This document shows positions 5,246 through 59,806 of a DNA stretch of 64,000 nucleotides, one piece after another. The stretch's first letter is position 1. Each line of letters begins with the position of its first letter. Both the position numbers and the translations under genes were made by a program. This DNA is from Turritopsis dohrnii. Taxonomy: Eukaryota; Cnidaria; Hydrozoa; Anthoathecata; Oceaniidae. The DNA is taken from contig BQMF02000025.1 in NCBI GenBank assembly GCA_027922465.2, positions 1,212,501-1,276,500 on the forward strand. The letters are read 5' to 3'. The notes below the pieces were generated by a model that worked only from the letters and a program-made list of their open reading frames with translations, ran no database searches and was not told where the DNA came from.

Positions 5246-6715
5246 ATGGCTATGGCTGATAACGTAACGAAAAAAGTAAAAAACTATAAACCATCTCTTG
5301 GAAAGCAATGCGCAGTCTGGGGATGTGACAGCAGAGGTTTGGTAGAGTTCGAAGGTCAACTAATTTCTAGTAATATAAGTTTTTTTACGTTCCCAAGAGA
5401 TTCTGGTGCTAGAAAGGTGTGGTGCAGTCGAATAAATAAAACGAATTGATGGAAAGGACAACTTTCGTGTGACTAACCATACAGTTTTATGTGAAAAACA
5501 CTTTGGGAAAACAGATATAATTAAGCCTGCTGGTGGGACTTTGAAACGTCTTAAAGAGAGTGCAAAACCTGTATCATTTAAAAGTATGTAAACAGATAAA
5601 TCAACCAGAAAACCACCAGATGAAAGGCAGTCATCTCCAAGAAAAAAATTTCGAAATACCGTTTCATTAGCAGATCCTGAGATGGAATTTTAACAACCTG
5701 TTTCAGAAGTAGTTGCAGAATTTTGTGCTAATCCTAGCACACAAACTGAAGAAAATTTTACGTCGTTGCAGGAGAGAATAAATTTATTACGAGGAAAATA
5801 GAAAACTGAAAAAAGTGTCTTGGAAAATAACGTCTCCACAAAGCGTAATTTTGTAGAGCACATACTATCATCTGATGATGTATGCAACCATTATACTGGT
5901 TTTTCAACTATTGACATTTTCAAAGGAATATATCTATTTTTAAACCCTGGTGACACTGGCGAAAATGTTATTTTATATAATAACCAACGCATTAAAGTAG
6001 ACACCTCAAGAGGCAGACCTCGTACATTATCACCCTTGGAAAGCTATTACAATAATTAATAACTAATAATACAATATATAACTAATACAATAATTATATA
6101 CATGGATAAATTTCATACATAAAATTGGAGTTATCTGTATATGGCCTACTCGAGAACAAGTGAGATCAATTATGCCTAAATCAATGAAGGAAAAGTTCCC
6201 AAATGTACGATGCATAATTGATTGTGTGGAGTTCAAAATTGCTGTACCAACCTCACTTGTGATGCATAAGCTTATGTATTCAGATTACAAAAATCATACA
6301 ACTGTTGAAGTGCTAGTGGGAATTGCACGTGGTGGAGGTTTTACGTTCATTTCATCAGCTTATCCTGGAAGCATATCAGATAAGGATATTGCGATTAAAA
6401 GTGGACTGTTATATCCAGAACTGTGGAGATGCAATTATGGCTGATCGTGGTTTCTTAATAGCTGATTATTTTCAGCCATTAGGTGTAGAACTCATTATGC
6501 CATCGTTTCTGAAAGGTCGTGAACAATTCACTGAAAGGAAAGTTGTTCTCAGTCAACAAATTGCTGCAGAAAGAATACATGTTGAGCGTATGATACAACG
6601 TCTTAAATGTTTTCATATTTTTGACAGAGTAATACCTGTAAATATGCAAGGTTCACTCAATCAAATAATTTCTGTGAGTGCAATGTTAGCTAATTTTCAA
6701 ACCAATTTAAAATGA
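5246..6715 (+). pseudogene. THAP-domain DDE_Tnp_4 transposase, degraded
   Basis: From ATG 5246 the N-terminus shows a THAP zinc finger: CAVWGC, then FFTFP, then W, with the closing CEKH found only after a frameshift near 5443. The second half (from about 5868) carries the DDE_Tnp_4 core: CIIDCVEFK (first Asp), PGSISDKDI, then MADRGF in another frame (frameshift near 6423), and HVERMIQRLKCF with the catalytic Glu. There are stops at about 5588 and 5690, and a region around 5820-6160 looks deleted or decayed. The intact protein would bind terminal repeats through THAP and cut and paste DNA. The family is confident; activity is ruled out by the breaks. Confidence 0.75.
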
Positions 6716-11435: not shown

Positions 11436-11444
11436 CACTTCTCT

Positions 11445-11518
11445 CAACCTCGTCCCCAGGGCTTCTTGCCTTTTTGATATACGGATGACGGCGAAGAAAG
11501 CCCTGGTGCAGGCCGGTC
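11445..11518 (+). repeat. left terminal inverted repeat of the 8.9-kb element
   Basis: Starts immediately after the CACTTCTCT target copy. One mismatch (gatgAcgg versus gatgGcgg) against the right end over 74 bp. Confidence 0.9.
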
Positions 11519-12075
11519 GTTTCTCACTTGTGATTTGTTGTCGAGAATTAAATAATTAAGAAAATATTACCCGCGGCGTCGAGTGAGATTTTAAAAAAAT
11601 AAATGCCGAAAGTTTCAAAGCCAGAAATGGGAATAAGATTGAAAATATTTCACCAATGCAGAAGACAAGACCTGATGAATAAATATTAAATAACATTATA
11701 ATTGGCTATGACTCAATTTTCGTACTTATCAATTTGTTTTATTGATTTCTCTATCAGTTTTTTTTCTTTTTTTTTTCTTTTTCTTTTTTTAAAGGTTATT
11801 TATCAGTTATTTGTGAGAAAAAAGATAGTAACTAGGCTAGAAAATTGATGACAGCCAGTGCAGTACGTACAGATATATCAGCTAAATATTTTCCTCTCAT
11901 GCTTTACCATTCAAAAGTATTCCTACCAAGCAGGTGTAACTGCAGCTTAATAGCTTCTCAAAATTGTGGAAGTAAGTTCATAAAATTTTTCAGGGAAAAC
12001 ATTTTTTTTTTCCCTACCTGTGTTGTAAATGAAAAAAATATAATACTGGTGTGAATATTTAGTGTCCATGAGTAA

Positions 12076-13426
12076 ATGGCTCAATTAACACCAAAGAAAG
12101 TGTATTTGCGGAAAGAAGGAGGAAATCAATCCAAATGTCGACTTTGTGGAGAGCAAAAGAACAACAATCACTTACTAAAGATATTTTCAGTTTCTGGAAA
12201 GCAGAAAAGATTGTCTCTGAAAATTGCACGTACATGTGGAATCGCCATAGAGGAGGATGACTGTCTCCCCCATACAATTTGCAGAAAGTGTTTGAGCCGT
12301 GTGGAAAACATGTTGACATTCATGCAATCCTGTCAACAAACACAGGTGACACTCAGACAAAGCTTATCTATAAAAAGATTACCACCAAGTAGTATCCAAT
12401 CACATGCTATTAATGGAGAAAGCTCCAGCATAGGTTCACGAAAACAGTTACAATTTACAACACAACAACAAATAAAAGTAAGGAACATAGTACAACAACC
12501 TAAACAAGATGAAAATTACATAATAAAACATAACTCTGTATATACTGAAGATTATGACGAAATTGTAACAAAACCATTGGAAAATACTGAAAAAATTGAG
12601 AACTCATTAAAAACAAAACAACCACTAGCCATAGCAACATCACTGTCTACATATGTGGGAGTCAATCTTGCACTAAAAAGGCTATTATGCAATGAAATTG
12701 CATCATCATGTGAAAAACTCTGTAAAAGAAAGGGAAATAAGTCAGTATTATTGGATAACACTTTCACAGGACTATCTGAGTACAGTGTAGACAAAGTTTA
12801 TTCAGAACTGAAGGAAAACCATCCCTTTATAATTGATATTTTTAATACTGTGTCTGGAAAGGCAGTTGATATTGAAGAAACACAAGCTGAATTGAAACAG
12901 AAGTATGCACTGATTTATGCAATTTTAATGAATGCTCGATGACATGAGTTAAGCCTTTTACAGAGGATTAATACAGTTTTGGTTATTGATGGTGGTTGCA
13001 GTAAGGAGGTAATATTATAATCTCAATGTTGATATTTCTCACAGCACTACCTTTAGCAATAAGGATGATCTTGCTCAAGAGATTTCAAACAAGATTTCCA
13101 AGGGTATTGTACAGAGAATGGGAGCAAACAAAACCTTGAGGAGTATCTCTATGATATGTAAAGCCACAAGTGGAATCAAAGAAATTGTTGAAAATTTTGA
13201 CATTACAAGCAACATCCACAAAGCATCAGTTGGTCACACTACTACAAATTCTTTAATTGACGAGAAGGAGATGATCAAAGACTTGCTTCAACTTGACCCA
13301 TTTACACACACAGTTGGTCGAGCACATAGAAGTTTTCCTGATATTAAAAGATCCCCCTCCTTGTATTTGAATATTGTAGAATTTCATAAGTGGTTAGATA
13401 AACACAAAAATGAATTAGCTGCATGA
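12076..13426 (+). pseudogene. ZAD-like zinc-finger protein, candidate transposase, internally deleted
   Basis: From ATG 12076 the first ~90 residues carry a ZAD-like C4 finger: CRLCGEQ, then about 40 residues on CLPHTICRKCLSRVENM. Next come a Gln/Ser-rich linker and a helical part (SVDKVYSELKENHPFIIDIF). The frame stops at 12940-12942, but matching sequence (LLQRINTVLVIDGG) runs on after the stop to about 13000. The C-terminal part resumes at about 13058 (DDLAQEISNKISKGIVQRMG) and ends at 13426 with DPFTHTVGRAHRSFP and FHKWLDKHKNEL. A large central region seems missing. The layout suits the DNA-binding/transposase partner of the element, but no catalytic DDE or HUH motif is visible, so the role is inferred from position only. 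Confidence 0.6.
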
Positions 13427-13719
13427 AAAAGTAAAGCATAATAAATCAGGTAGAATTGATCTGTCATTTGTTCAAGTCATTTATATGAATCATCCAATTG
13501 TATAATAACATTCTAATATAAACAATCAAAGACAAACCAGCCAGGATTTTTTGCACCTTGTGATTATTATACTTTACCTTAGACAATAAAGACAGTGGAA
13601 TAAAAGAACATTACAGAATTAACAACTTCATTGAAATCATAACTGCAAATAACTACAAAATTCTGAATTCTTATTTATTCCACTGTGTTTTTATGTATAT
13701 ATATATAATGTAAAAAACT
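13427..13719. other. intergenic space between convergent genes of the element
   Basis: AT-rich, with AATAAA-type signals usable by both convergent genes (e.g. GACAATAAAG near 13584). No coding frame. Confidence 0.4.
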
Positions 13720-14815
13720 TTACTGCATATATGGAGCATATTTCTCTATGATATCATATATTAATTGCACATATAAATCATCCCAAATATTGAATGTATG
13801 CAAAAGATCTCCTGGTGATAGAACATGTTCAATGTTAGAAACAACATCTTCAATAATTTCATTGGATAACCTGAACACATGAACCATATATTCAGATTGT
13901 AATTTGTTGTGTTCTTCCATATTGTACTGCAAATCAACCAACTTTTCACAAATAATCTTTCGATTTTCCTGCATCACGAGTCGAGAAGGTTTTTTACCAT
14001 CTGTTTCAATTGATTTGTATACACAAACATCTTCATTACAAACTGAACAACACATGTCCTGAGAATCACCACAAAAACCAAAGTATTCAAGCAGTTGCTT
14101 TCGCAAACAGGTAGATGATTTACAAAACATCTTCATTGATTCATCCACATTTTTGTCACTCAAATCATTGTTATTATAAAATAAAATAGCATTGGATTGT
14201 TGCCCAGATCTCCCTGCCCTTCCAATTTCTTGTGCATACGATTCAAGATTATTGGGTGGATTCATATGTATTATTTGAGAAACACTAGGAGCATCTACAC
14301 CCATTCCTAATGCAGTAGTAGCAATAACAACACGAATTCTGGAGTTTTCATTCTTGATTTCTTGCAGAATTTCAGCCTTCATCTGGGAAGTAGATGATGC
14401 GTGAAACTGACTGAAAAGCCTTGCTCTAGGACACAATTCCTTTCCGACAAATGGGTTACTAATGATGGATTCAAAAAATTTGTAAGCATAACCACAATAC
14501 TTAATCCTGCTGGTATAAATAAAAGTTAATGGATATTTTTCCCTTTTATTGTCCAACTCCATTGCAATTGGTTTCAAAATGTCTTCATAACTTTGAATCC
14601 CTTTGCTACTAGATAACCTTGTATGTACAGAAAGAAAGACATTTCTCCTATTTGGAGAAGCTTTGATGATTTCACATTCATCCATTTTCAGTGTCTTTTT
14701 TAACTTTTTAATTTGATCTGGTGGTGAAGTTGCTGTTAATGCCAACATAACAGCTGAAGGAAAGAAGGCTCTTAAAACAGATAAATTCTCAAAGTCTGTC
14801 CTGAATTCTTTACCC

Positions 14816-16477
14816 CTATATAAAAAAAACAGAATAAAGTCTAGAACTTCTATAGTAAATAGTCATTTACATTATGTTTTTGTGTTAAGTTCAAAATGTA
14901 TGTTTTGGTTCCACAATACACTTTCTATTTTATATGAAGTTTTCCTATACTAATTGTTGATTCTCAAAGTGCAATGCATGCATTCTTACAGATTTTAATT
15001 CCGAAAATCTGGTTAATATTGGTCTGTATTGTGTGTTATAAAAGCAGATTTATATAAATTCTATTTTCAAGCTCTTTTGTTTTTAGTTTTGTCCACATAA
15101 AAGTTATATATACAGAAGCTATTATATATACTTATTATTGTGTTAATTATTATTCAATTTCCGCGCTTTTAAGCGTAGGAAATTGTTTGGTTTACACATT
15201 CTATCTATCTGTCTATGTAACAGTTTTTTGCCGTTTTCGGAAAGTCCGTTCGGATTTCGGATTGTTTGTTTATTCAGAATAGTTAATGACAGACCGAAAA
15301 CGCTATGCTAAATGAAATACAAAAAGGCCTCTATCAATATCAATTCATAAAAATATTAACTTTTTTATACTTTTGAAATATTTTTAGAAGTTATTTTAGC
15401 CGTGTTATGTTGAAAACTTTCCAATTCAATCTTTAAAATTTTTATTATCAAGTCAGTAAAATATGCACACCAAGCACGTGAAAAGTTTTCCAACCGATTT
15501 CGTTTATGTTTTGAGGAAGTTTTTGAAGTAACTTCGTAGAAGCTTTGAAGAAGAATTTTAAGACTTCTTTCCTGTCTTTATCTACTATTGCAATCGAAAT
15601 ATTATCATGAGAACATTACTTATGGAGGAAATATTGATGTTAAGCTGACTCCTGGGAAAGATTCTTGAAAAAGAAGATGAAGGTTTGATAATAAACAAAA
15701 ACGTGCTGTGAAAAACCTTCAGTATCACAGCAGAAATGTATGAAGTATCAGCATTACTGGTGAATACGTCCATCCATAAATGCATGAAGCATTCTCCTTC
15801 ATTTAATAAATATTACACTGAAGTTGAAGATATTGAAAAAAAGTAAACAAATGAAATTGTCATTAAGCACAAATTACTTCACTTGTTAATGAGTTGATCC
15901 AAACTGCCTACATACCCTGACACATACTGAATAAACATCATGCGCAAGATATTGGCGAACGATATGTCTAATAAAACTGTTTTTTGGCTCCGAAACGTCA
16001 TAGTGAATTGAAAAGTGGTTGACATTAAGTTTAATAAATTAAAGAAATTTGAAATTTGTAATTTGTGGAATTCCAAATTATTAGTCACTGTACGTAGCTC
16101 GGTCAAGTTATCACTGTCTGAGACTCATTAGTGTTACATTCACATTGGAAAAGATGACATCATTCAAAATAATCAAGATTTTTTCCACTGCAAACCACTC
16201 AATGGAGGCACAATGATTTAGTTTGGGATATATATATACAATGTCATGAAACAAACTTTAGATGATGATTAGAATCCACCCAATAATTATATACATACAA
16301 TGTGATCACTAAAACCTTGTGTAAATTTGGAGTGTAATATGTTCTAGGATAATATCATGTTTGAAAAGAACATTGCAATACAGATCCTAGCAAAGTTTTA
16401 ATTGTGTCATTTGTCTTTTCGTGCACATTTGTGTTACTTATAAGTACCATGAAAAGACTCAAGTGGTAATACGCATA
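14816..16477. other. helicase intron, left part; no gene seen
   Basis: AT-rich intron DNA. A short palindrome (TTTCCGCGCTTTTAAGCGTAGGAAA, about 15159-15184) is visible. No supported coding frame. Confidence 0.35.
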
Positions 16478-16641
16478 CAGTAGTGGATCTAGAGGGTAGT
16501 CGCAACTTGTGGAGAAGCGCATTAACATATTGTGAATTAAATTTATATTATCAATGGGATTATTTGAACGTTTTTCTTTTATTTTTGTTATTGCTAACAC
16601 TCTCCAACACAAGTTGCGACTTACCTCTGGATCTGCCACTG
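16478..16641. mobile_element. hAT-like MITE, 164 bp
   Basis: Inverted ends CAGTAGTGGATCTAGAGG / CAGTGGCAGATCCAGAGG continue with GTCGCAACTTGTG in both arms. The CAGTGGCGGATCC-type end is common in animal hAT MITEs. No clear 8-bp target duplication could be found. Confidence 0.55.
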
Positions 16642-16687
16642 GCAGGTTTAGTAGAAATAGATTTTCTTATTGCATGTGATATAGTCA

Positions 16688-18702
16688 GGTAGCTGACGAC
16701 ATAAAAAAAAGGTGTTTGCGTGCAAACTTCGGGACATTTCAAAAATATTAAGAACAACATCTATACGCTTTATAAAAATAAAAACCAGTTCCCGATTTTC
16801 AAAATAATCTTTAAGGACTGAGTTATAATCAAAAACAAGTCACCAACACTCATACAGTTTTCTTCACTAAACCGTCCTCCATGTTTTTATTATTTTATCA
16901 AACGCGTTCGAACTGGCTTGAATTTGTAGAAAATAAGACGGGGGTCAAAATTAGATAAAAAAAGAAAAGTTTAGTCAATACAAATTATTGATATTTATTG
17001 TAGTTATTATAAATTTTGTTATTGCATTTTTTAAATTTTGTTATTGTATTAGTTTTAAATAGCATTTTAATAAATATTTTCTTTATTGATATTCCAAACA
17101 ATAAACTTTGCTTTGCAGCCCCCGTTTTATTTCTTTTGTTTACATTTTTAAGAGCACGCTTTTTTTTTTCGCGCGGGAAATCTGAAAATCAACGTGCTAA
17201 TCATGTCTGAAGGACCTTCTGCTCCAATTTCTTCATCGTCTCTTCGAAAATTAAGCCTTTCTCCAAAGAAAAACAAAAATAAATGTTTGATTCATGTCTG
17301 TGATGGCTGCGGTAACGCCAAGCTCAGATTCTTCACCGAAACATCTTTGGAAAGAGTAAAAAATGCAAGGTAATAAATTTTTTCTTTATAACTTTTATAC
17401 ATTTTTATTTGCCTTTTTCGTGACATCTATAATTTTACATACTTGCACTGTTATTGTATGCATTTAAAATTATGCTAGGCAGGCAAGCCTATACTTGTTT
17501 TGGAGTTTAAAATAAAATTCTCCAAGAAATAACCTATACAATAACAGGAAAATATATTTACTTCGTATAAACAGTACAATACGGAATGATGAAAAAGTTA
17601 TCAACATTCTAAATGACCCAACTGTAAACGCACTCACAGATTTATCGTTCCATCAGAAGTGTTACGATAAATATACTCACTCCCGGCTACTTTCAAAGTT
17701 AAAAGATGGTGATCAGAACGTAAGTGATGCAGCAGTCGATGATACCACGAAAGACAATGGCTGTGATAATTTAAAAAGGGCTTTGTTTGACAACGTTAAC
17801 GAAGCAAGATATGCAAAGTTTTGTGCGACTGAGAAAGCGGCAGAGCCATGTAAATTGCCGCCTACAAGAGATGTTCTCTTGTGCCACTGCAAAAGAGTTG
17901 CATATGTAACAGCCGTAGTAAAGAAATCACTAGTCAATAACCCAGATATCCCATCACCTCACGGTCATGGATGGGTTCTTGAAGACGGGAAACTTCAGAT
18001 CCAATGGATGCTGTTACCCCCCGTGCCCCCGCAACTTATGGATATGATTGATTGTGGGTGTAAAAGTGGCTGTAAGAATAAGTCTTGTGTATGCAAATCA
18101 CATGGACTTTCATGCACTGATTTGTGCAATTGCACCAGCTGTACCAACAATGATGATTTAAGTGGCAGTGAATCCAGTGATAGCAACGAAGATGATGAAT
18201 CGGATTTTTCTGAATGCGACTAAACGTTTTTTTGAGTAACTTACAAACCATTAGTGATCGTTAATATATGTCAATGCCCTGCTCCTACTATAAACTTTAT
18301 GCTCAGACTCTTTTCCCATTCAGTCTGACATCATGTCTGAACGATCCTTTAGTAAAAATGTGATTCCGACCGCGTACAACGTCTAAAATGATGACGTCAT
18401 CAAGCTGAATTTATCGTTCCATAGCGACTGAAGTATTGATTTCTAGATATTAATGTTTTTGCATTATTTACTCAAAAATAAAATATCTATCGATTGATAT
18501 ACTTTTACAACAAATTTGACGTCATAAATGTTTTGACGTATGGCGTGACGTCATCAAACCCTTAAAATCTCCCGACACAGCCCCTTAAATAATTTTTCAA
18601 AAATCGGGATCCTGATTCCTCGTCCTTTAGGTCTATTTGATGATTTGAAAGTGATTTGGTTTTGTCCCCAAGTTGTCCAATTTTTTTTTGTCGTCAGCTA
18701 CC
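16688..18702. mobile_element. 2.0-kb nested element carrying a CxC protein gene
   Basis: Inverted ends GGTAGCTGACGACA followed by A-runs on both sides, with further scattered similarity inward (cttcgggaca / cttggggaca; cccgattttcaaaa / cccgatttttgaaa). Flanks show AGTCA on the left and GGTCA on the right, a possible imperfect duplication. It sits wholly inside the helicase intron of the 8.9-kb element and encloses the two-exon gene below. Confidence 0.6.
17203..18223 (+). CDS. two-exon cysteine-rich (CxC-tail) transposon protein, ~272 aa
   Basis: Exon 1 (17203-17369, ATG MSEGPSAPISSSSLRKLSLS...) has CDGCGNAKLRFF. A GT (17370) to AG (17573-17574) intron of 205 bp, phase 2, joins to exon 2 (17575-18223). 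Exon 2 contains FHQKCYDKYT, which together with exon 1 could form a C2HC zinc site. Then come ARYAKFCATEKAAEPCKLPP, a HGHGWVLEDGKLQIQW motif and a Cys-rich tail (CGCKSGCKNKSCVCKSHGLS, then CTDLCNCTSC) before an acidic Ser/Asp C-terminus. The frame is open throughout. The tail resembles CXC-type modules seen at the end of larger cnidarian transposon proteins; this one looks like a shortened version lacking the core. No catalytic motif was found, so function is unknown. Confidence 0.65.
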
Positions 18703-19289
18703 GGTCAACAATATAATTTTTATCTTCTTGTAATCCTGTTATCTGTCATATATTAAAATCTTTGAAATGCCCAAGTTTAGATAGACCAGGTTTTCAGTTT
18801 TTAAGCAAGTTTGACCTATTTTAAATCATTTTGTTGTAATAGATGTTATAGTGTTGAGGTCAATACAATTGTGAAAGTCTTCAATCCATACAGCTTCTTT
18901 TTTCAACTGATTTTGGTTCACTTCTATTAATATCATTTTATTCTCCATGTGAACCATAAGTCATATTTGGAGATGGTGATAGACCTGTTCTCACATAAGC
19001 AACAAGAAAAGAATGGATAGTCATTCAGATATCTTGAAAATTTGGCTAAAGCAATTTCCTCTAGGCCTGATGCGGAAATTGTTCAAGCCATGAGGCTTCT
19101 AGTTTATATTATTTAAGCACTCAAAAACTATTACATATTGAGTTTTTTTTTTAAAAAAATACCCAGCTAATTTAGCTGCATTGTGTTACAGTCTTGTTTT
19201 ATATTATATATATATTTAACTTTTTAACCTGCTGAGGCTTGATGTCAAAATATATTTTATCAAAAACTATTATTATGTAATATACATAC
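18703..19289. other. helicase intron, right part; no gene seen
   Basis: AT-rich intron DNA next to the exon 1 donor; nothing else recognised. Confidence 0.35.
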
Positions 19290-19900
19290 CACATTTCAAC
19301 ACAATGTGTTTCATCAATGCAACATGCCACAACATTATCTCCTGGATCTTAATAGTTTTCTTCCATCATCACACAATAACGACTCTGGATGTGAAAACAG
19401 AATGTCGATTTCTCCTTCTAAAACTTCACTGGCTAATTCTAATTCCATATCATCAGTTTCAGTATCAGAAATATTATTACACTGTCGTTGCTGCTTTCCT
19501 TTTTGATGCTGAAACAATGATGTCACCTCTTTCACTTTTTCAAATTGCAGGACACCAACTTTGACTTTTCTATCAGTTAAAACTCTCATTTGATCTTGTA
19601 TGATTGAATTCAACGGACTTACAACAATGACAATATTTCTCTTCCTCTTCTTAGGAATTAGAAAAGGCAGCAGTTGATAAACCAACGATTTACCAAAACC
19701 AGTTGGTAGAACTGCTAAGACGTCGTTGCCTTTTAAAAGTTGATTCCAGCATTGAACTTGTTTTGGTTTTAAAAAAAACCCTTGCATATTGCTTTTATCT
19801 AAAGCGTATTCAATTTGCTTAAATAAATTAATCACTTGCTCCATTTTGGTTTGCTAATTTTATCTATGATCGTACGAATTCTGTTTCACTCGACGTTTTA

Positions 19901-20170
19901 AGGCCGATTTCCATTCAACGCTTATGCCCGCGCGGACGTAGAATTTTCCGAGCGGCCAAACAGCTGCAAATGGAAATCAAAAGACACGATTGGCTGAAAT
20001 TATCAGCGGACATCGGCGGGCTTAAAAAAAGTTGAAATTTTTTAACTTTATTTTTGCTCGCTGAGCGGACATAACTACACTAATGAATTAGCCAATACGC
20101 ATGCGTTCTAAGTCACTGAGCGTGGATTACCTACGTCCGCGCGGATATTTTCTTGAATGGAAATTGGCCT
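19901..20170. mobile_element. 270-bp MITE, TTA target duplication
   Basis: Inverted ends AGGCC(G/A)ATTTCCATTCAA, plus a second inner match GCGCGGACGTAG in inverted orientation. TTA flanks both sides (19898-19900 and 20171-20173), as in PIF/Harbinger-type MITEs. It lies between the helicase start codon and the right TIR of the 8.9-kb element and could carry or displace its promoter. Confidence 0.7.
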
Positions 20171-20300
20171 TTAATCAAAAAAATTTAAGTAGTTCTCTAC
20201 CTCGCTTGCCCGTATGAAGACGATCTTAAAACCATGGGAAGAAAAGACAAATGACGTCAGTACTGCATAAATTAAAACCACCAGTATTTCGGTGGGTTTT

Positions 20301-20374
20301 GACCGGCCTGCACCAGGGCTTTCTTCGCCGCCATCCGTATATCAAAAAGGCAAGAAGCCCTGGGGACGAGGTTG
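20301..20374 (-). repeat. right terminal inverted repeat of the 8.9-kb element
   Basis: Reverse complement of 11445-11518 with one mismatch, followed directly by the second CACTTCTCT copy. Confidence 0.9.
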
Positions 20375-20869
20375 CACTTCTCTATGATTGAGCGAAACTC
20401 AAGCGTAATACACGTCATATCACGTGACTGCGGCTTCTATATATTAATAGCCGATTCTCTGTCTGTCTGTCTGTCTGTTTGTTTGTTTGTTTGTTTGTAA
20501 GTCACGCAAAATGGTAGATTGAGTTGTGAGCGAAATTTTTTCTTTTTTTGTGTGCGACGTGAGTTCGAAGCAAATACATTGCAACCCCAATCGAACGTGA
20601 CTTTTTTTGGCTGATGAACTAATAGGAATAACGTTTTGTTTTTATTATTATTGTTAGTTTTATATTCCACGTTGACTTGGCTTTGAAAACAGTACATCAA
20701 CTAAATACAAAGAAACTAACTGATTAAACATTTTGGACAAAGAGCAGCAGTGGCAGAACGTGGCAGCATGTGCGGTTTGCCAGTGTATCCTAACGTATCC
20801 TTGCCTGACTGTCTGAGACGAATGAACTTTTTTTTCGAGCAATCAAAATGTTAAAAAACCGATAGGTAA

Positions 20870-40352: not shown

Positions 40353-41062
40353 TTATTATATCAAAATCGACACTTTCATTAGTTTCTGTTTTTCATTGGG
40401 CAAACTGACTAATAGACATAAATAATCATTGATATCACATCTGGGACTACAGACAATAAACAGTTAAAAAAATTGGTTCGGGCCACCAAAATTTTTGAAA
40501 ACCAGTGTTGTGGTGGCCCGACTGGACAGGCAGAAAAAGATTTGAGTTTTATAATGTTTGTCTTTGCAATTTCAGCTCTTTTTTTCTATGAAATTGTAGA
40601 GTGTTATTGAATATCAGGCCATTAAAATTTCCTTCGAGCCACCAAAAACTCTAAAACCAATGATGTCAATGGCCTGGCGTGGCACCCAGGTAAAATCTTA
40701 AGATTAGACACTGATGTCATTTTATTAGACAAGACAACAACAAATCAAAGATTTATAAATGTACCTTCCTTACCTTATCCCAGAAACCTATGTATTATTA
40801 TTATAAAATAACCTGTTATTTTGTATCACTGTAGGGTTATATTATAAAAAGAAATTTGGTCCAAAATGACTTTTTACATCAAATTTTAAAAAATGCATTA
40901 TAAATTACACTATGTGCTAATAATACAGTTGTAATTAGAAAAAAGCCCTCAGATTGTTATATCAAGGATATTGGAGTGTTTTTTGTATTTTGTTTCATAA
41001 AAACCTTGACCAGGGTTACATTAAGTGGTCCCATTACTTTATACCCTTATAAAATTATTTAG
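40353..41062. other. receptor upstream/intron DNA; no exon found
   Basis: Presumed intron or 5' flank of the receptor gene. A 10-bp perfect inverted repeat (CGGGCCACCA 40479-40488 / TGGTGGCCCG 40511-40520) lies within a short repeat that recurs, diverged, near 40640. No signal-peptide exon was recognised. Confidence 0.4.
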
Positions 41063-44000
41063 GCCTGTCTGCTTTACAATGCTACCATTTTGGTGAAAGA
41101 GAAAGTTGTCGTGACAATCATTGCAAGCAAAACTGCTCATATACAACAAAAGACTTGTCAGCATGTCAGATAATTTACGAAAGAAACACTTCAAATAGCC
41201 TGTATGTAAGGCATGCAAGCTGTTGGAGTTGGAGTCAGTGTTCTGTAAAAAACAGCAGTTGTGTGTTACGACCTGATGGTCCCAATTTGTTCTCATGTTG
41301 CTGCAAAACAGACCTCTGCAATGTCCCCGAAAAAGTAATAATTGACGAAAAAATCTTGGTACGTACTACATCCACTGAAGGTAAGCTTCTTTATGACCTT
41401 GTTTTACCACTACAGTACCGTTCGCATGAAACTTTACATGTACATGAGATTTACGACTTCATGTAACATCTCATGTTTACACAAAGAATGTTCATGTGTC
41501 CATTCTTATCACACAAAGTTAAATAATTTTTATTGTTATTCCAACTGCGTGTTTAATAATCGAACTCATGTGCATTCTTTTGCTCGATCACGAAATATGC
41601 GTGTGATAATTTGCATGTACATGTAAAGTTTCATCTGAACGGTACTGTACATATCAAAAGTTATTTTCAACTCAATTTTTTGACAATAACTATGACTGTA
41701 ACTTGAAAAATACTTACGCTTATCTGTTTAGTCATTATAATTGAATAAGTCAGAGTTTATCATGTCATGAACATGAAATGAAATGACACTTTGAATATCA
41801 CCAGGGAACTCATGCAGATTGATGATGATTATGGGAATAAAACCAAAATGCCAATAGCTAGAATTAGAAATTAGATTGAATTAAAACATGGTATTTTTTT
41901 GACGATAACTTCTCTAAACAAACTGATGATGTCGCGATGGGTGGACCAACATCCTCTGTGGTGGCAGAAATATGTATGCAGGCTCAACAGCTTTAACGAC
42001 TGCAGATCATGCACCTAGAGTTTGGAATCTGACCTGAACTGGTTTTTATTTTTGGTCTTTTTCACCTTGAATTGTTCTTATTTTGTTTTTACATAATTGC
42101 AACACAGTTTCACAGTGTGTATTTAGTGCTGTTAGTTTATTCAGTTAAAGTAAGAATTTTTTTCTTTTTTAGTGAGGAAACCTTCTGACTCAATTTCCCC
42201 TTCAAAGGTGGTGTGGATTTGTTTTGCTGTTTGCCTGCCATTGATTGCTGCAATTGCAATTCCTTGTTTTTGGAGACTACATAAAAAAAATAAAGAAAAT
42301 AGAAGGAATATTCAAGACAATATTCAAACTAGTCCCCCTGTTCAATCAAGATTCATTCAGTTCCACGAAGAAATTTCGAGGGGGAAGTACAGTTCTGTTT
42401 GGAGGGGAACGTATGAGCACAAACAAGTTGCAGTAAAAATACTTTTACCGAATGAACGGGATTTGTGGGAAACGGAACGTTCTATCTATTGTGATAACCA
42501 GTTGTGGCATGAAAATATATTAAGGTTCCACTCAGCTGAAAAACGCTGCGAACTAGGCCGTGATCAATACTGGGTCATAACAGAATTCCACCAGAAAGGG
42601 TCTTTAGCGGACTACTTGTCAGCTTCTGTCCTGGATTATAATGACTTATTGAAAATACTGTTATCAATTGTTTCTGGGTTGGCGTATCTTCATGAAGATG
42701 AACCATCTGGAGTGCCGCCTAAACCACCTATTGCGCACCGTGACTTCAAAAGTCGTAATGTGCTTGTAAAATCTGATGGCAGTTGCTGTATAGGGGATTT
42801 TGGACTTGCTTGTTCATTTTTTTATGGACATGAAAGTGAAGAGTCAAAGTTACAGGTATCATGATAACAATTTCAAATTTGTATATTAAAAAGGATCTTT
42901 AGAGTGCTTGGGGTTTTTCCCTTGATTAAAAACTCGTAGTAAACTGGAAATATGATTTTTGAGAAGTTAACAGGGTAGCTCTACAATCACACTTTTTATT
43001 GCCTCACATAAATATTCCAACTCGTGTAACTCTAACCTCTAAGACTCTAATTGATAATATTTTTATGTCTCATTTTTTATCAATTAATTCAATCTCTGGA
43101 AAACTTCATCCGTTTCTGATCATCTTCCCCAATTTTTAATAACTTATAGTGATGTAATTAAAAACAATGATAAGAATCAAAACAACTTTTATAGAGATTG
43201 GAATAAATTGGATACTGTAGGATTTAAAAAAGATTTCACTGACTTAGATTGGGATAATTTGTTTTTAACTGTAAGCAAGATGCCCTAACAGGCAAAAGGA
43301 TTTCTGCGAAATATGCTGAAGTATGAAAAATAAAAGACCATATATGACATACTTGAAATTTGAAAAGGTTACACGATTTGCAAAATAAAACATATACAAT
43401 TCTAATGTACTCCCCAGGACATTTTATCAAAGGACAATTGGCACTATGTGAAACTTATAATGTATACACAGCCAATAAACTGGATTACATCTGAATGAAA
43501 TAAAATATTCTTTATTTTGTTAGTACGAAATAATATCAAGGATGTATTGACTCATAAACTCTCAAAGTTCTGAATTTGATACTTGGTGTTAATTTTCCTA
43601 GTAGACTTCCAAATTTTCAAGCACAAAAAAGCTCGCAAATTTTTTCACGCAAATCACATCCACATAGACCAAAATCAACATATAACCGAAATCAGAAATT
43701 TCTGTTTTAGTTTGATTAGCAATATGGCATGCATTTACAAATATTCTTGATCTAAGTTGACATTCATATCCTGTTTATAAAAATTCTTTAAGAAATTCGA
43801 AAAATCAGTTGAAGGATTTTTAAAACATAAAATTACATTTCTGATTTTGTATGCACCCCAGGACATTGCAAAAGTGCAATTGACACTACATGAAACAATA
43901 ATGTACATATACACCATCGATAAACTTAATTAAATCTGAATGACATAAAACATCCTTTATTTTGGAATAGAATAGAATAGAATAATATTTATTCGTCAAA

Positions 44001-53390: not shown

Positions 53391-56300
53391 TTATTGTAAC
53401 TTGTAGTGTCCTCTCGCTAATGTTCTAATACCATCGACGATAATTCTTTTGTCATCATCCGCATTGAGAGCGAGTTTGTTTGATTTCAATGTGTAAACAT
53501 CATGCTTAATCGATCGGAAGGTCATTTGCTCTCTATAAATATTTTCACCATCCAATAAACATCTCTTATAATCATCAAACCCCATCGTCTTCTTTACTAC
53601 ACACTTCTTGACTCCCTTACACTTTTTGTCTTCTGTTCCGTCTAACTGTTTATATGCATAGGTCTTTGCTCTAAGAGCAACAAACTCTGTCATTATCTTA
53701 CCACCCAACTCATCTTTCATTAGACCAATGACTTTCTTATTCAAACCTATGGGTAAAGGTCTGTTATCTTTCTCATCGTACGCTGAAGTGTCGAATCTCA
53801 AAGCTACATCATCGGCGATATCTTTGTAAAAGTCGTTGGTTTTGATGTGGTAGACAAAGCTGTCTGTATCCATATAGCAGAGCTTTAGATTGTCGCCATA
53901 TTTTGGTCTCATGTAATCATAGTGAAACCATACATAATCATCTTTGACAAATCAAGAACCGCAGGCCCCAGATAGATTGGCTTGTTCAATATGAGTTTGA
54001 TCTTTTGCATTTCAGCAGCCATCAAATGTTCGCTGAAACAGATACTACCCTTGAAGTTAGGTTTCATCACCAGCTTCTCATATTGTTCTTTCTTGGTAGC
54101 CAAGCGTATGTCTTTATGCTTACGTTGATTCTCCATAGTTTTACCAAAGACTAAATTGTTCATGAGCTTGAAAAAGTCCTTTTCAAAGTCATTCTTTGAT
54201 TTGGTACGCAAATTGGTGTTGAAATCGATGTACGGCTTCAACCATGCGCTTTGCTTAAATCTCAGTACTCTATGAACCTTCTCAAGAACAAGACCATGCT
54301 TCAGCGCTTGATCAAGTGCACAGATATGAATAATATAGTTCTTCTTGTCTGAAAGACATGGAGTTAGCTTTTCTACACCATTGATCTTCTTTCGCTCAGG
54401 CATAAATGGAAGATAGTTATGTGAATCATGAAGCTCCTGAGGATAGTTCACATCAACTTCAAGAAGATAACCATATTTACCGTCTTTCTCAGCGAACTTT
54501 GAAATGAATTTAGCGGTAAATTTATTAGCATCTACCCACTTGAAATTCCCTGTCGGTAGCTTCTGAATCATAGCTCATCCATATAGATTGTTTGCATCAA
54601 GATATTGGAGATAGCTACTTTCTTCAGTCTTCTTATATTTAGCATCCATATACTTGTTATTAGCTTTAGTATGTCTATGAACAGCCTGACAGAGACCTCC
54701 TCTAATACCTTGCTCTACGAAGAGAAACATATCCATATCTGACAACAAATCCAGCTCAACCTCTGTCTTTTTCAAACAGGCTTGCCAAGCTAGTCCTGGA
54801 GCAGTGTAAAAATGTGCAGGATCCAGTTTATAATTTGTTATGCATGTTTCCCTAAAAGTCTCAAAAACATCAGCAAGCAAAGAACGTCTGTCTTGAGGTA
54901 GAGATCATGATACACACCCATATTTTTATTTTTCATGTGTTTCCACACCTTCTGTGCATGTGTATAATCAGCATCACTGATACCTTTCATGTTCAACTTG
55001 CTGTAAAAAGCATCTTTCGGTGGGAGCTTAGTTTCATTAAACTTATCAAAAGAATCAATGTATTCATAAGGATAAACTCCTTTTCTTCTCAATAGTTTGA
55101 ATTGCTCATCACCCTTGAAGAATTTTCGAAGGTTTTTACACTGATCGTCAGATAGATTGTTTACCAAGTTATCCAGACTACTAGCCATGAAACGCACAAT
55201 ATCGATGAATCTCAACTGTATCTTTTGAACTTTAGTCTCCCCATTTTTGTTAGTGTATTCACCAACCTTAACATCCAATGAGAAAGAGATATATTTTTCT
55301 TTGTTTTCAGCGATGACGGTAATCTTTTCATCTCCATACTGTTTGGCTAGTTCTTTGATAAACAGATGAGCATCATATCCGCTCAGATTGTGAAAGACGA
55401 TCGGGATGTATTTAGGCACTTTATAACGGAGATTACAAGACTGATGTGCAGCTCCACGAAATTTACCAGTAAAATGACAGTGATCCCTAACCTTAATATT
55501 ATCTTTTTCAAATTCTTTCATACATATGTGGCATTTATCAGAATCGGTAAATCCCTGTTCCTCTTCATATGTGAGGTCTCGCATTTTCTGTTTAGGAAAC
55601 ATATTGTATAGCCTTTTCACTTCACCTACTGCATGATCCACAAAACGTAAAACACAGTCTTCACCACGATAAAGCGTTAGAGGGTCTGAAACTTCACCAT
55701 GAGCAAATTTGCTATAACAACAGAAGCCTGTGGGGATATGTATACCAACCTTTTCAGTGGATGATCCACTACCGCTGCGCGGTTCTTCACAAACCTCTTT
55801 TGACAAAGCTTCGAAATCAGCATACATTATGAAAGGAGCTTTGAGCTGGTACTGACCATCATGAAATTTAACGGTGCTACCCTCTTTAGGGAGTTGAATC
55901 TTAGCAGCATCGTTATCTTTACAATACTCAAAGTGCTCATCTCTCATCTGCTCACTTGAGAATCCATTGAGACAATTCAAGCAATAATGCTCCTTATGTT
56001 CGTACTTCGAGTTGACCTTGCTCAAGACACCGCTCAAGTTCTTTACAGCTATATAATGTCTCTTTTCCTCTTCACATAGTAAAAACAAAACAACCGTTTC
56101 TTTGCGGTCAAGATGCTTCGACTTACGACACATATAGACACCTTCTCTTACATCTTTTGTCAAAACATGCACAGCGATATCAGGGTTCCTCCTCTCAGAC
56201 AAATCTATTTTATTTAGCGCCATCGGAAACGATAAACCATTCCAATTATAGTTATCATACTTTTTGAGAGTTGAGATTCGCTCAGGATGATTATCGATCT

Positions 56301-56973
56301 TATCATGATTGAGAGCTGCGATAATAGCCCACCTAAAACATTCATCATCTTCATTTTTAGGATTGATTATCGATTTCTTACCGCTGAAATTCTTAGGTAG
56401 CGGCAAGTAAGAGCTGCCTCACGTTAATTTTAGCTTGTGAAAGTCTACATCAATATTTAAAATCTTATCGATAACAAAGCCGGATTGAGGTAATGCAGGG
56501 TTTTCAACCTGTTCGATTATCTTATTGAACATATTATTAACAACATCAGATATATCACTTTCACTGTGAATTGTTTCCATATTGCTATTGAACGCCTTAT
56601 CGACGTAGATTGTCGCTTCAGGATTGGATAAATCCTCCTTTCTCCATTTGATCCACACAGTTGCTTGAATTTTTATTGATTTTTTGTTTTTGAGTTCCCT
56701 CTTAATCAGATCAATTAGGATGGGTCGAACCTTTTTGAGAAACAAATCAACATCCTTTTTTCCATCTGAGTTTATCTTGAACCTTTTATAAGAACCATCA
56801 AACGCCGTTTCAATGGGGACAAACGCTTTTGGTTTCACCAATTTTTCATCTTTTTCATCATCCTTCTTGTAGAGATTAAGAATCTTCTTCTTCATCTCTC
56901 TGAAAGCGCTACTCACTTTCTCACGAATAGGTTTAGGTGTGTGATTTACCAACCACTCCTTCAACTCATCCAA
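53391..56973 (-). pseudogene. protein-primed family B DNA polymerase (Polinton/Maverick type), decayed
   Basis: Minus strand. The N-terminal part (56973-56419, MDELKEWLVNHTPKPIREKV...) continues past a TGA into 56406-54838, which holds an endonuclease VII-like zinc region (CHICMKEF...RDHCHFTGKF...CNLRY) and exonuclease motifs (MYADFEAL, FHNLSGYDAH, YLKTDVLCL). After a frameshift near 54870 come motif A (YLDANNLYG), another TGA near 54572, motif B (FFKLMNNLVFGKTMEN), another frameshift near 53925 and motif C (CYMDTDSF), stop at 53391. Polymerases of this kind replicate virus-like Polinton elements from a protein primer. Two TGA stops and two frameshifts make it inactive. No integrase, ATPase, capsid gene or terminal repeat is seen, so only the polymerase part remains here. 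Confidence 0.85.
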
Positions 56974-57024
56974 CTTGCTTTTTACCTGAGGTCTATAGGC
57001 GCACTTACTGTTAATAATGATACA

Positions 57025-59752: not shown

Positions 59753-59806
59753 TCAACCTCGTACCCAGGGTTTCTTGCCTTTTCGATATACGGACGGCGG
59801 CGACAT
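59753..59806 (+). repeat. solo end related to the 8.9-kb element TIR
   Basis: CAACCTCGTACCCAGGGTTT then CTTGCCTTTTCGATATACGG matches the first ~50 bp of the TIR at 11445 with a few changes. No partner end was found within the window, so this is a truncated relative. Confidence 0.7.

Follow-up and report, generated by a model that had tools for sequence, protein, structure and literature searches.

A decayed two-gene DNA transposon of probable AcademH type with zf-AD/DUF6589 and RecQ genes in Turritopsis dohrnii

Structure of the element in the window

The window, i.e. the whole stretch of 64,000 nucleotides of Turritopsis dohrnii DNA that was analyzed, harbors an element of 8930 bp (11445-20374) inside which a zf-AD gene and a RecQ helicase gene converge. 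Its inverted arms, 74 nt each, lie 8782 nt apart and pair at 73 of 74 positions (99%, one mismatch), and the element termini are CA..TG. The features assigned were as follows.

11436..11444, no strand: left 9-bp target duplication CACTTCTCT, directly outside the left arm, exact copy
11445..11518, plus: left terminal inverted repeat (TIR), 74 nt, beginning CAACCTCGTCCCCAGGG, 99% complementary to the right end
12076..12942, plus: first exon of the transposase-type gene, zf-AD at residues 21-95, in-frame stop at the end; 36% identity to P0001 residues 3-282
12943..13011, plus: remaining part of exon 1, same frame, beyond the stop
13055..13065, plus: deletion junction, element position 1618/1619 against 4362/5961 of the C4 relative
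13061..13423, plus: remnant encoding the last 120 residues of the zf-AD/DUF6589 protein; 59% identity to P0001 756-875
13720..14815, minus: RecQ exon 2, Helicase_C; splice site by inspection
14816..19289, minus: RecQ intron, swollen by nested DNA; splice sites set by inspection and with the intact family-A gene as analog
15151..19102, no strand: foreign insertion of ~3.9 kb inside the RecQ intron, missing from the C4 and C75 relatives
16688..18702, no strand: inner nested element in the intron insertion with 22-nt inverted repeat ends, flanking a CXC-domain-like ORF
19290..19844, minus: RecQ exon 1, DEAD helicase domain; splice site by inspection
19901..20170, no strand: nested insertion of ~270 bp with inverted ends at a TTAA site, missing from the C4 relative
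20301..20374, minus: right TIR, 74 nt, from the inverted-repeat search
20375..20383, no strand: right 9-bp target duplication CACTTCTCT, directly outside the right arm, exact copy
59754..59803, plus: lone third end of the same element kind, 96% identical to the family-A terminus across 50 nt

The first 21 TIR bases, with up to three mismatches allowed, occurred three times in the window, at the two ends of the element and at 59754, and not at all in 100 shuffles. Pfam scanning of the window ORFs assigned zf-AD to the ORF at 12076-12942 (plus strand) with an E value of 4.6e-13. Compared with the C4 relative, ~1.6 kb is missing at the deletion junction, comprising the intron end and most of DUF6589; the match of the remnant at 13061..13423 to the end of DUF6589 (E 0.025) fell under the cut-off. 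In the same scan, the DEAD model matched 19335-19853 (minus strand, E 8.3e-13) and Helicase_C matched the ORF 13720-14862 (minus strand, E 4.8e-15). The exon 2 portion matches solved chains of BLM, RECQ1, and RecQ, and the RecQ zinc-binding model scored 23 bits on this exon, below its cut-off of 25 bits. Motif II of RecQ reads DETH and is found in another frame only, a frame shift lying just upstream of it. The CXC-domain-like ORF inside the intron (17516-18223, plus strand) matched TCR/CXC with an E value of 0.0056, under the Pfam cut-off.

The window copy is a dead, internally deleted element. It was either moved by proteins acting in trans or decayed after intact insertion, with neither course favored. 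A preliminary description had claimed a bounded transposon with 74-bp inverted ends, one mismatch, and identical 9-bp flanks, and the arm and flank coordinates bear this out. Its RecQ helicase with motif II DETH is likewise confirmed by the DEAD and Helicase_C matches, to which the intron, the frame shift, and the ~3.9 kb of nested DNA have to be added. The ZAD-like gene that it placed opposite RecQ is present and convergent, but it is decayed: a stop interrupts its frame and a large internal part has been deleted, both of which had escaped notice.

Relatives in the same genome and target duplication length

Further copies, which that description had proposed to collect, were found in families A and B, one of the family-A copies being intact. 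The intact relative (C142:160492-166459) measures 5968 bp and has identical TIRs of 73 bp and a 9-bp duplication. Its genes have GT-AG introns and encode a 917-aa ORF1 protein with zf-AD and DUF6589 and a 543-aa RecQ. Family A comprises seven copies, each at a site of its own; the duplication is exactly 9 bp in six of them and exactly 10 bp in one. Recent movement is suggested by two of its copies, which are 99.6% identical across 4682 bp that take in the left end and the greater part of the genes. In family B, which is divergent, the element at C80:513594-519240 (5647 bp) shares the terminal motif and has a 9-bp duplication. TIR lengths are 74 nt in the window, 73 nt in C142, and 51 nt in family B, and all TIRs start with CAACCTCG.

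Because copies were drawn from the top-ranking matches to the TIR and to DUF6589, the sample is biased toward well-preserved ends. Four of 20 stretches (L025-L028) showed one end only within the stretch and stayed outside the duplication count; L009 and L010 were taken as one element, and L020, L021, and L023, which have one common flank, were counted once. For three of 10 paired loci, which are nested or partial, the comparison refers to the ends alone. On this basis, 22 independent insertions had duplications of exactly 9 bp (13), exactly 10 bp (4), or 9 bp with one or two mismatches (5). The duplicated target sequences vary between sites. Thus, 9 bp is the main length, as had been expected, but not the invariable one. 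That the TIR pair and its flanks arose by chance or misassembly is scarcely credible in view of the shuffles and of such ends at 22 independent sites, with exact 9- or 10-bp duplications in 19 of 24 rows.

Pairing and co-divergence of the two genes

A convergent RecQ gene adjoined DUF6589 at 26 of 30 loci; at the other four, one of which (C60) has an uninterrupted frame of 564 residues, a RecQ match was absent from 1.5 kb on either side. Conversely, 26 of 28 RecQ matches of at least 200 bits had DUF6589 at a distance of 5 kb or less, in every case convergent, and the other two adjoined zf-AD. The expectation that the two genes travel together is supported. Proximity counts used 53 of the 115 RecQ matches in the genome, and the counts by bit score come from rows of at least 100 bits. 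Against these 53, RecQ was found within 5 kb for 41 of all 67 DUF6589 matches and not for 26, and for the 21 RecQ rows of 100-200 bits, DUF6589 was found at 15 kb or less in 11 and not in 10. A host-gene origin of the RecQ matches was rejected for the strong copies, which sit within elements; the weaker matches gave a mixed picture.

Across 21 loci, DUF6589 identities and RecQ identities correlated with a Mantel r of 0.97 (0 of 5000 permutations), a value inflated by groups of near-identical copies. The zf-AD/DUF6589 and RecQ proteins have thus diverged together across several families.

DUF6589 as candidate transposase

DUF6589 is likely the catalytic domain, a predicted nuclease of DDE/RNase H type, and the N-terminal zf-AD zinc-binding domain likely serves end recognition. 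Conserved acidic residues (P0002 numbering, homologs covering each position) are D36 (45 of 45), D224 (54 of 55), and D474 and E478 (52 of 54 each), other acidic residues being equally conserved. When 55 DUF6589 homologs were analyzed by hmmscan with E values up to 10, the matches listed (25 of 28 Pfam families) contained no transposase domain. Apart from DUF6589 and zf-AD, the families among them were weak, a KDZ-element cysteine cluster in one member (E 0.092) being the sole family with a transposon link. The DUF6589 profile retrieved no solved structure from the PDB. DUF6589 was not named in the literature searched, and a search for zf-AD joined with transposon and transposase found nothing.

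A further ORF in the genome, L073 (1302 residues), matched Pfam DUF6589 with 31.1 bits against a cut-off of 27. By eye, we take its C-terminal part to resemble the XPG-type nuclease expected of AcademX; neither the Pfam nor the PDB search reported a nuclease there. Direct alignment of L073 with the hydrozoan DUF6589 profile was insignificant, so that only the Pfam profile bridges them, and no element ends were found within 400 bp beyond the examined stretch. Pfam XPG_I occurred at four places in the genome, none of them at a DUF6589 match.

Discussion

In our judgment, the element is most probably a dead and internally deleted representative of an AcademH-type cut-and-paste DNA transposon with two genes. 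AcademH is a lineage of the Academ superfamily reportedly described from animals and fungi by Kojima in 2020 (Mob DNA 11:15). AcademH elements bear terminal inverted repeats. The available text of PMC10045372 ascribes to AcademH a helicase and target duplications of 9 or 10 bp, and to AcademX a nuclease and duplications of 3 or 4 bp; Academ elements with a RecQ helicase are reported in the accessible part of PMC3627910. Homology of the proteins to those of the Academ superfamily is inferred, AcademH being compared by description. The preliminary description had named only Academ elements with 3-4-bp duplications and had suggested a match to no nameable family and a possibly undescribed kind; this view finds no support, since AcademH fits in its helicase and its 9-10-bp duplications.

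An unlikely alternative is that DUF6589 with zf-AD would constitute the catalytic transposase of a superfamily of its own, separate from Academ and AcademH-like by convergence only, in which the accessory enzyme would set the duplication length. The literature results and the lack of a curated transposase domain among the matches listed for the homologs agree with this reading. Against it, both features in the partial description of AcademH recur here, and Pfam DUF6589 also matches L073 with its AcademX-like nuclease tail, recognized by eye only. In another form of the idea, DUF6589 with zf-AD may be the catalytic transposase of the whole Academ superfamily. If true, a RecQ helicase or an XPG-like nuclease as partner would decide between duplications of 9-10 and 3-4 bp.

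A RecQ-bearing Kolobok element resembling KolobokH is very improbable. KolobokH and Kolobok-1_CCri are also DNA transposons with RecQ, and the available text of PMC9587614 mentions fungal lineages with RecQ and one red-algal family with RecQ on the complementary strand. According to the same text, Kolobok elements have TTAA-specific 4-bp duplications and RR..YY termini, in contrast to varied duplications of 9-10 bp and CA..TG termini here, and KolobokH is reported from fungi only. Equally improbable is the capture of a host RecQ gene by a Mutator-like element. The long TIRs would fit such an element, as would duplications of 9 bp, the usual length in Mutator-like elements. For IS256/MuDR, the range given in the accessible part of PMC10045372 is 4-10 bp. 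MuDR differs by the RecQ partner present here and by its MULE transposase domain, which was absent among the matches listed for the DUF6589 homologs. RecQ occurs in several families whose mutual RecQ identities are mostly 35-46% (range 27-60, one pair without alignment), so its capture was not recent.

We propose for AcademH-type elements of this kind that working relatives encode a transposase (zf-AD plus DUF6589) and a RecQ-type helicase transcribed convergently. The transposase would bind the TIRs of 50-75 bp (CAACCTCG...CGAGGTTG), excise the element, and insert it where the target strands are nicked with an offset of 9 or sometimes 10 bp, and repair of the gaps would then yield the target duplication. 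The helicase probably unwinds the ends or the target, or aids repair or copying of the gapped site.

The element is useful because it ties DUF6589, a Pfam family of unknown function, and zf-AD to a precisely bounded and apparently recently mobile TIR transposon. One two-gene copy (C142) was read as intact, and close copies occupy six further sites. The helicase has been kept alongside the presumed transposase through several divergent families. What a RecQ carried by a transposon does, and how the accessory enzyme relates to duplication length, can thus be tested directly. Relatives in public gene sets (Hydractinia, Clytia, and Dendronephthya) are labeled as RecQ/Q1-like helicases or uncharacterized proteins; the DUF6589-transposon link may therefore also help annotation.

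AcademX presumably has a transposase of a common superfamily, and a DUF6589-positive ORF with a C terminus that is nuclease-like by eye (L073) occurs in this genome. AcademX is unlike the present elements in that, as far as it is described, it combines a nuclease with 3-4-bp duplications, whereas a helicase and 9-10 bp are found here and no nuclease was among the Pfam matches of the scanned window ORFs. With AcademH, no difference emerged; the comparison concerned features other than the zf-AD N terminus, the assignment to DUF6589, and the convergent arrangement of the genes. The likeness extends to a helicase beside the presumed transposase, here RecQ with zf-AD/DUF6589 (the intact pair in C142), to duplications of 9 or 10 bp, here at 22 sites, and to terminal inverted repeats, here of 51-74 nt. 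The element thus looks like a fresh example of the already described AcademH lineage rather than a new kind.

Structure and decay of the transposon

The preliminary description had delimited a transposon with 74-bp inverted ends, a 9-bp target duplication and convergent genes for a ZAD-like finger protein and a RecQ helicase; all three statements were confirmed. The inverted repeats at both termini are 74 nt long with a single mismatch, and CACTTCTCT flanks the element left and right. The zf-AD gene reads inward from the left end and the RecQ gene inward from the right, so that they converge.

Features of the element
11445-20374: transposon body, 8930 bp, bounded by the inverted ends
12076-12942: zf-AD gene, inward from the left end, Pfam E 4.6e-13
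19844-19290 and 14815-13720, minus strand: RecQ gene, two exons, splice sites by inspection
15151-19102: ~3.9-kb insertion in the RecQ intron, ends CAATTTCCGC...GCGGAAATTG
16688-18702: inner element inside that insertion, 22-nt inverted ends, CXC-domain-like ORF below the Pfam cut-off
19901-20170: nested ~270-bp insertion, TTAA site, inverted ends GGCC...GGCC, missing from the C4 relative

Solved BLM and RECQ1 chains aligned with the exon 2 portion of RecQ, including the Helicase_C core. The copy is dead. An in-frame stop interrupts the zf-AD frame, and a frameshift lies ahead of the DETH motif of RecQ. Compared with the relative on contig C4, the copy lacks ~1.6 kb comprising most of DUF6589, an uncharacterized Pfam domain presumed to be the transposase, and has ~3.9 kb of additional DNA within the RecQ intron and 270 bp inserted in a TTAA site. 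The latter insertion looks like a TTAA-type MITE.

Searching the window with the 21-base terminus retrieved both element ends and a lone third end at 59754 (0 in 100 shuffles). This solitary end (59754-59803) is of the same element kind and most similar to the terminus of family A, with 96% identity over 50 nt; the window yielded no partner end for it. Other features were also observed there.

6094-6715: remnant of a Harbinger-type DDE transposase (DDE_Tnp_4 in 6094-6444, E 1.3e-16)
41053-42864: receptor-kinase-like gene exons, with a protein kinase domain and a CD59/activin-receptor-like stretch (below Pfam cut-offs)
53391-57024, minus strand: ORFs that, judged by reading alone, resemble a DNA polymerase of the Polinton type

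Relatives in the genome

The zf-AD protein, with the stop and the missing part entered as X, matched 10 proteins; the best match, from Hydractinia symbiolongicarpus, has 875 residues and combines zf-AD with DUF6589. The 436-Mb assembly containing the window yielded 67 DUF6589 matches, and the best 18 of the 67 had no internal stop.

Representative relatives
C4:1453037-1460619: 7583 bp, full protein match (residues 3-875 of the homolog P0001) and both RecQ exons
C142:160492-166459: family A, 5968 bp, 73-nt identical TIRs, same terminal motif as the window element
C80:513594-519240: family B, 5647 bp, 51-nt TIR

Both genes were read through in full for C142 only. Its zf-AD/DUF6589 protein is 917 residues long, and the intron of that gene reads GTAAGG...TTTTAG; its RecQ, which has DEAH, is 543 residues long and is encoded with an intron reading GTAAGA...TAATAG. 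Matches to zf-AD, DUF6589 and RecQ exon 2 were all uninterrupted in five of seven family-A copies. Of the other two, C401 is interrupted by stops in both the zf-AD and the RecQ match, and the zf-AD frame of C678 is shortened. The C137 copy is 99.6% identical to C142 across 4682 bp, the likeness ending at the left TIR. The DUF6589 domains of families A and B are ~60% identical, and the C80 copy of family B has the family-A terminal motif and a 9-bp duplication. In an 11,756-bp relative on C75, DUF6589 is interrupted by a 4.5-kb insertion. Short copies with both TIRs were common among those fetched (e.g. six of ~2.9 kb); L013, the sole one compared in detail, kept remnants of both genes. Three DUF6589 matches at C10:966904-975849, with identical scores and a regular 3,990-bp spacing, resemble a single element fragment repeated in tandem.

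Length of the target duplication

Three of 24 rows had one common flank, leaving 22 independent insertions in a sample that favors well-preserved ends. Of these, 13 had exact 9-bp duplications, five had 9 bp with 1-2 mismatches, and four had exact 10-bp duplications. Because the registers differ, the 10-bp match is not an extended 9-bp match, and 10 bp is a real alternative. The seven family-A copies occupy seven different sites, all with exact duplications (six of 9 bp, one of 10 bp). The short copies L020, L021 and L023, on C119 (twice) and C471, have one common flank, AATTTGAAAGC, so they probably multiplied when a larger repeat was duplicated rather than by separate insertions.

Association of zf-AD/DUF6589 with RecQ

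RecQ lay directly downstream and convergent in 26 of 30 DUF6589 loci and was not found within 1.5 kb at the other four (L029, L051, L054 and L058). It was less than 1 kb away for 17 of the best 18 DUF6589 matches, C60 being the exception. Conversely, 28 RecQ hits scored 200 bits or more, and 26 of them had a convergent DUF6589 no more than 5 kb away, in surroundings that make up at most 0.17% of the genome. The remaining two were the window copy and the C163 locus, the latter with zf-AD at a distance of 2.6 kb. When all 67 DUF6589 matches were considered, short fragments and divergent long ORFs included, 41 lay no more than 5 kb from one of the 53 RecQ hits used for this comparison and the other 26 did not.

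Pairwise identities of DUF6589 and RecQ at 21 loci were correlated (Mantel r 0.97, 0/5000 permutations), a value inflated by groups of near-identical copies. Between families, identity was 54-68% for DUF6589 and mostly 35-46% for RecQ (27-60% including short alignments; one pair had no match). Outside this genome, EukProt gene16282 (DUF6589) and gene16284 (RecQ) carry neighboring numbers in apparently the same gene set, which suggests that they may be adjacent. The gene pair and the duplication are real and general within the T. dohrnii genome.

Candidate active site

Among the homologs covering each position (P0002 numbering), D36 (GTGDNWD) was conserved in 45/45, D224 (GDQLT) in 54/55, and D474 with E478 (a D-x3-E motif) in 52/54; the motif recurred in the divergent L051, L054 and L056 frames. 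From their sequence setting, we infer that D36, D224 and E478 (or D474) may form a DDE-type triad. Conservation alone does not single it out, since D381, D402, D408 and others are equally conserved. The Pfam matches listed for DUF6589 homologs included no curated transposase domain, and the DUF6589 profile matched no solved structure. By analogy, zf-AD would be an end-binding module; RecQ may act as an accessory helicase on ends, target or repair.

Comparison with known transposons

A Mutator affiliation is unlikely, as the Pfam families listed for DUF6589 homologs include no MULE transposase. KolobokH and one RecQ-bearing Kolobok have been described, and TTAA is given as the superfamily's duplication (PMC9587614); duplications of 9-10 bp argue against this placement.

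The 1302-residue ORF of L073 (C475:244000-248400) scored 31.1 bits for DUF6589 (cut-off 27), and by eye its C terminus looks like an XPG/PIN-type nuclease. When the ORF was aligned directly with the hydrozoan DUF6589 profile, the match was not significant; Pfam XPG_I had no hit at the locus, and no ends were found within 400 bp. L073 is possibly an AcademX relative; if its nuclease-like reading were confirmed, both Academ lineages would contain DUF6589.

In the literature, RecQ helicase is named for Academ elements (PMC3627910), AcademH and KolobokH are among the transposon sources of fungal DEAD and Helicase_C domains (PMC10799480), and Academ or AcademH is also mentioned in PMC12210899, PMC8290104 and PMC10294476. 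Our literature search, whose reach did not extend to Kojima 2020, which defines AcademH and is the likeliest source of such a statement, retrieved no paper linking DUF6589 or zf-AD to such elements, and this link may be new. The combination falls within AcademH, so the proposal that the family is undescribed is not supported. AcademH duplications are 9 or 10 bp and those of AcademX 3 or 4 bp, a difference that seems tied to helicase versus nuclease, according to PMC10045372. Compared by published description rather than transposase sequence, the present elements resemble AcademH and fit with it on two printed criteria, the helicase partner and the 9-10-bp duplication.
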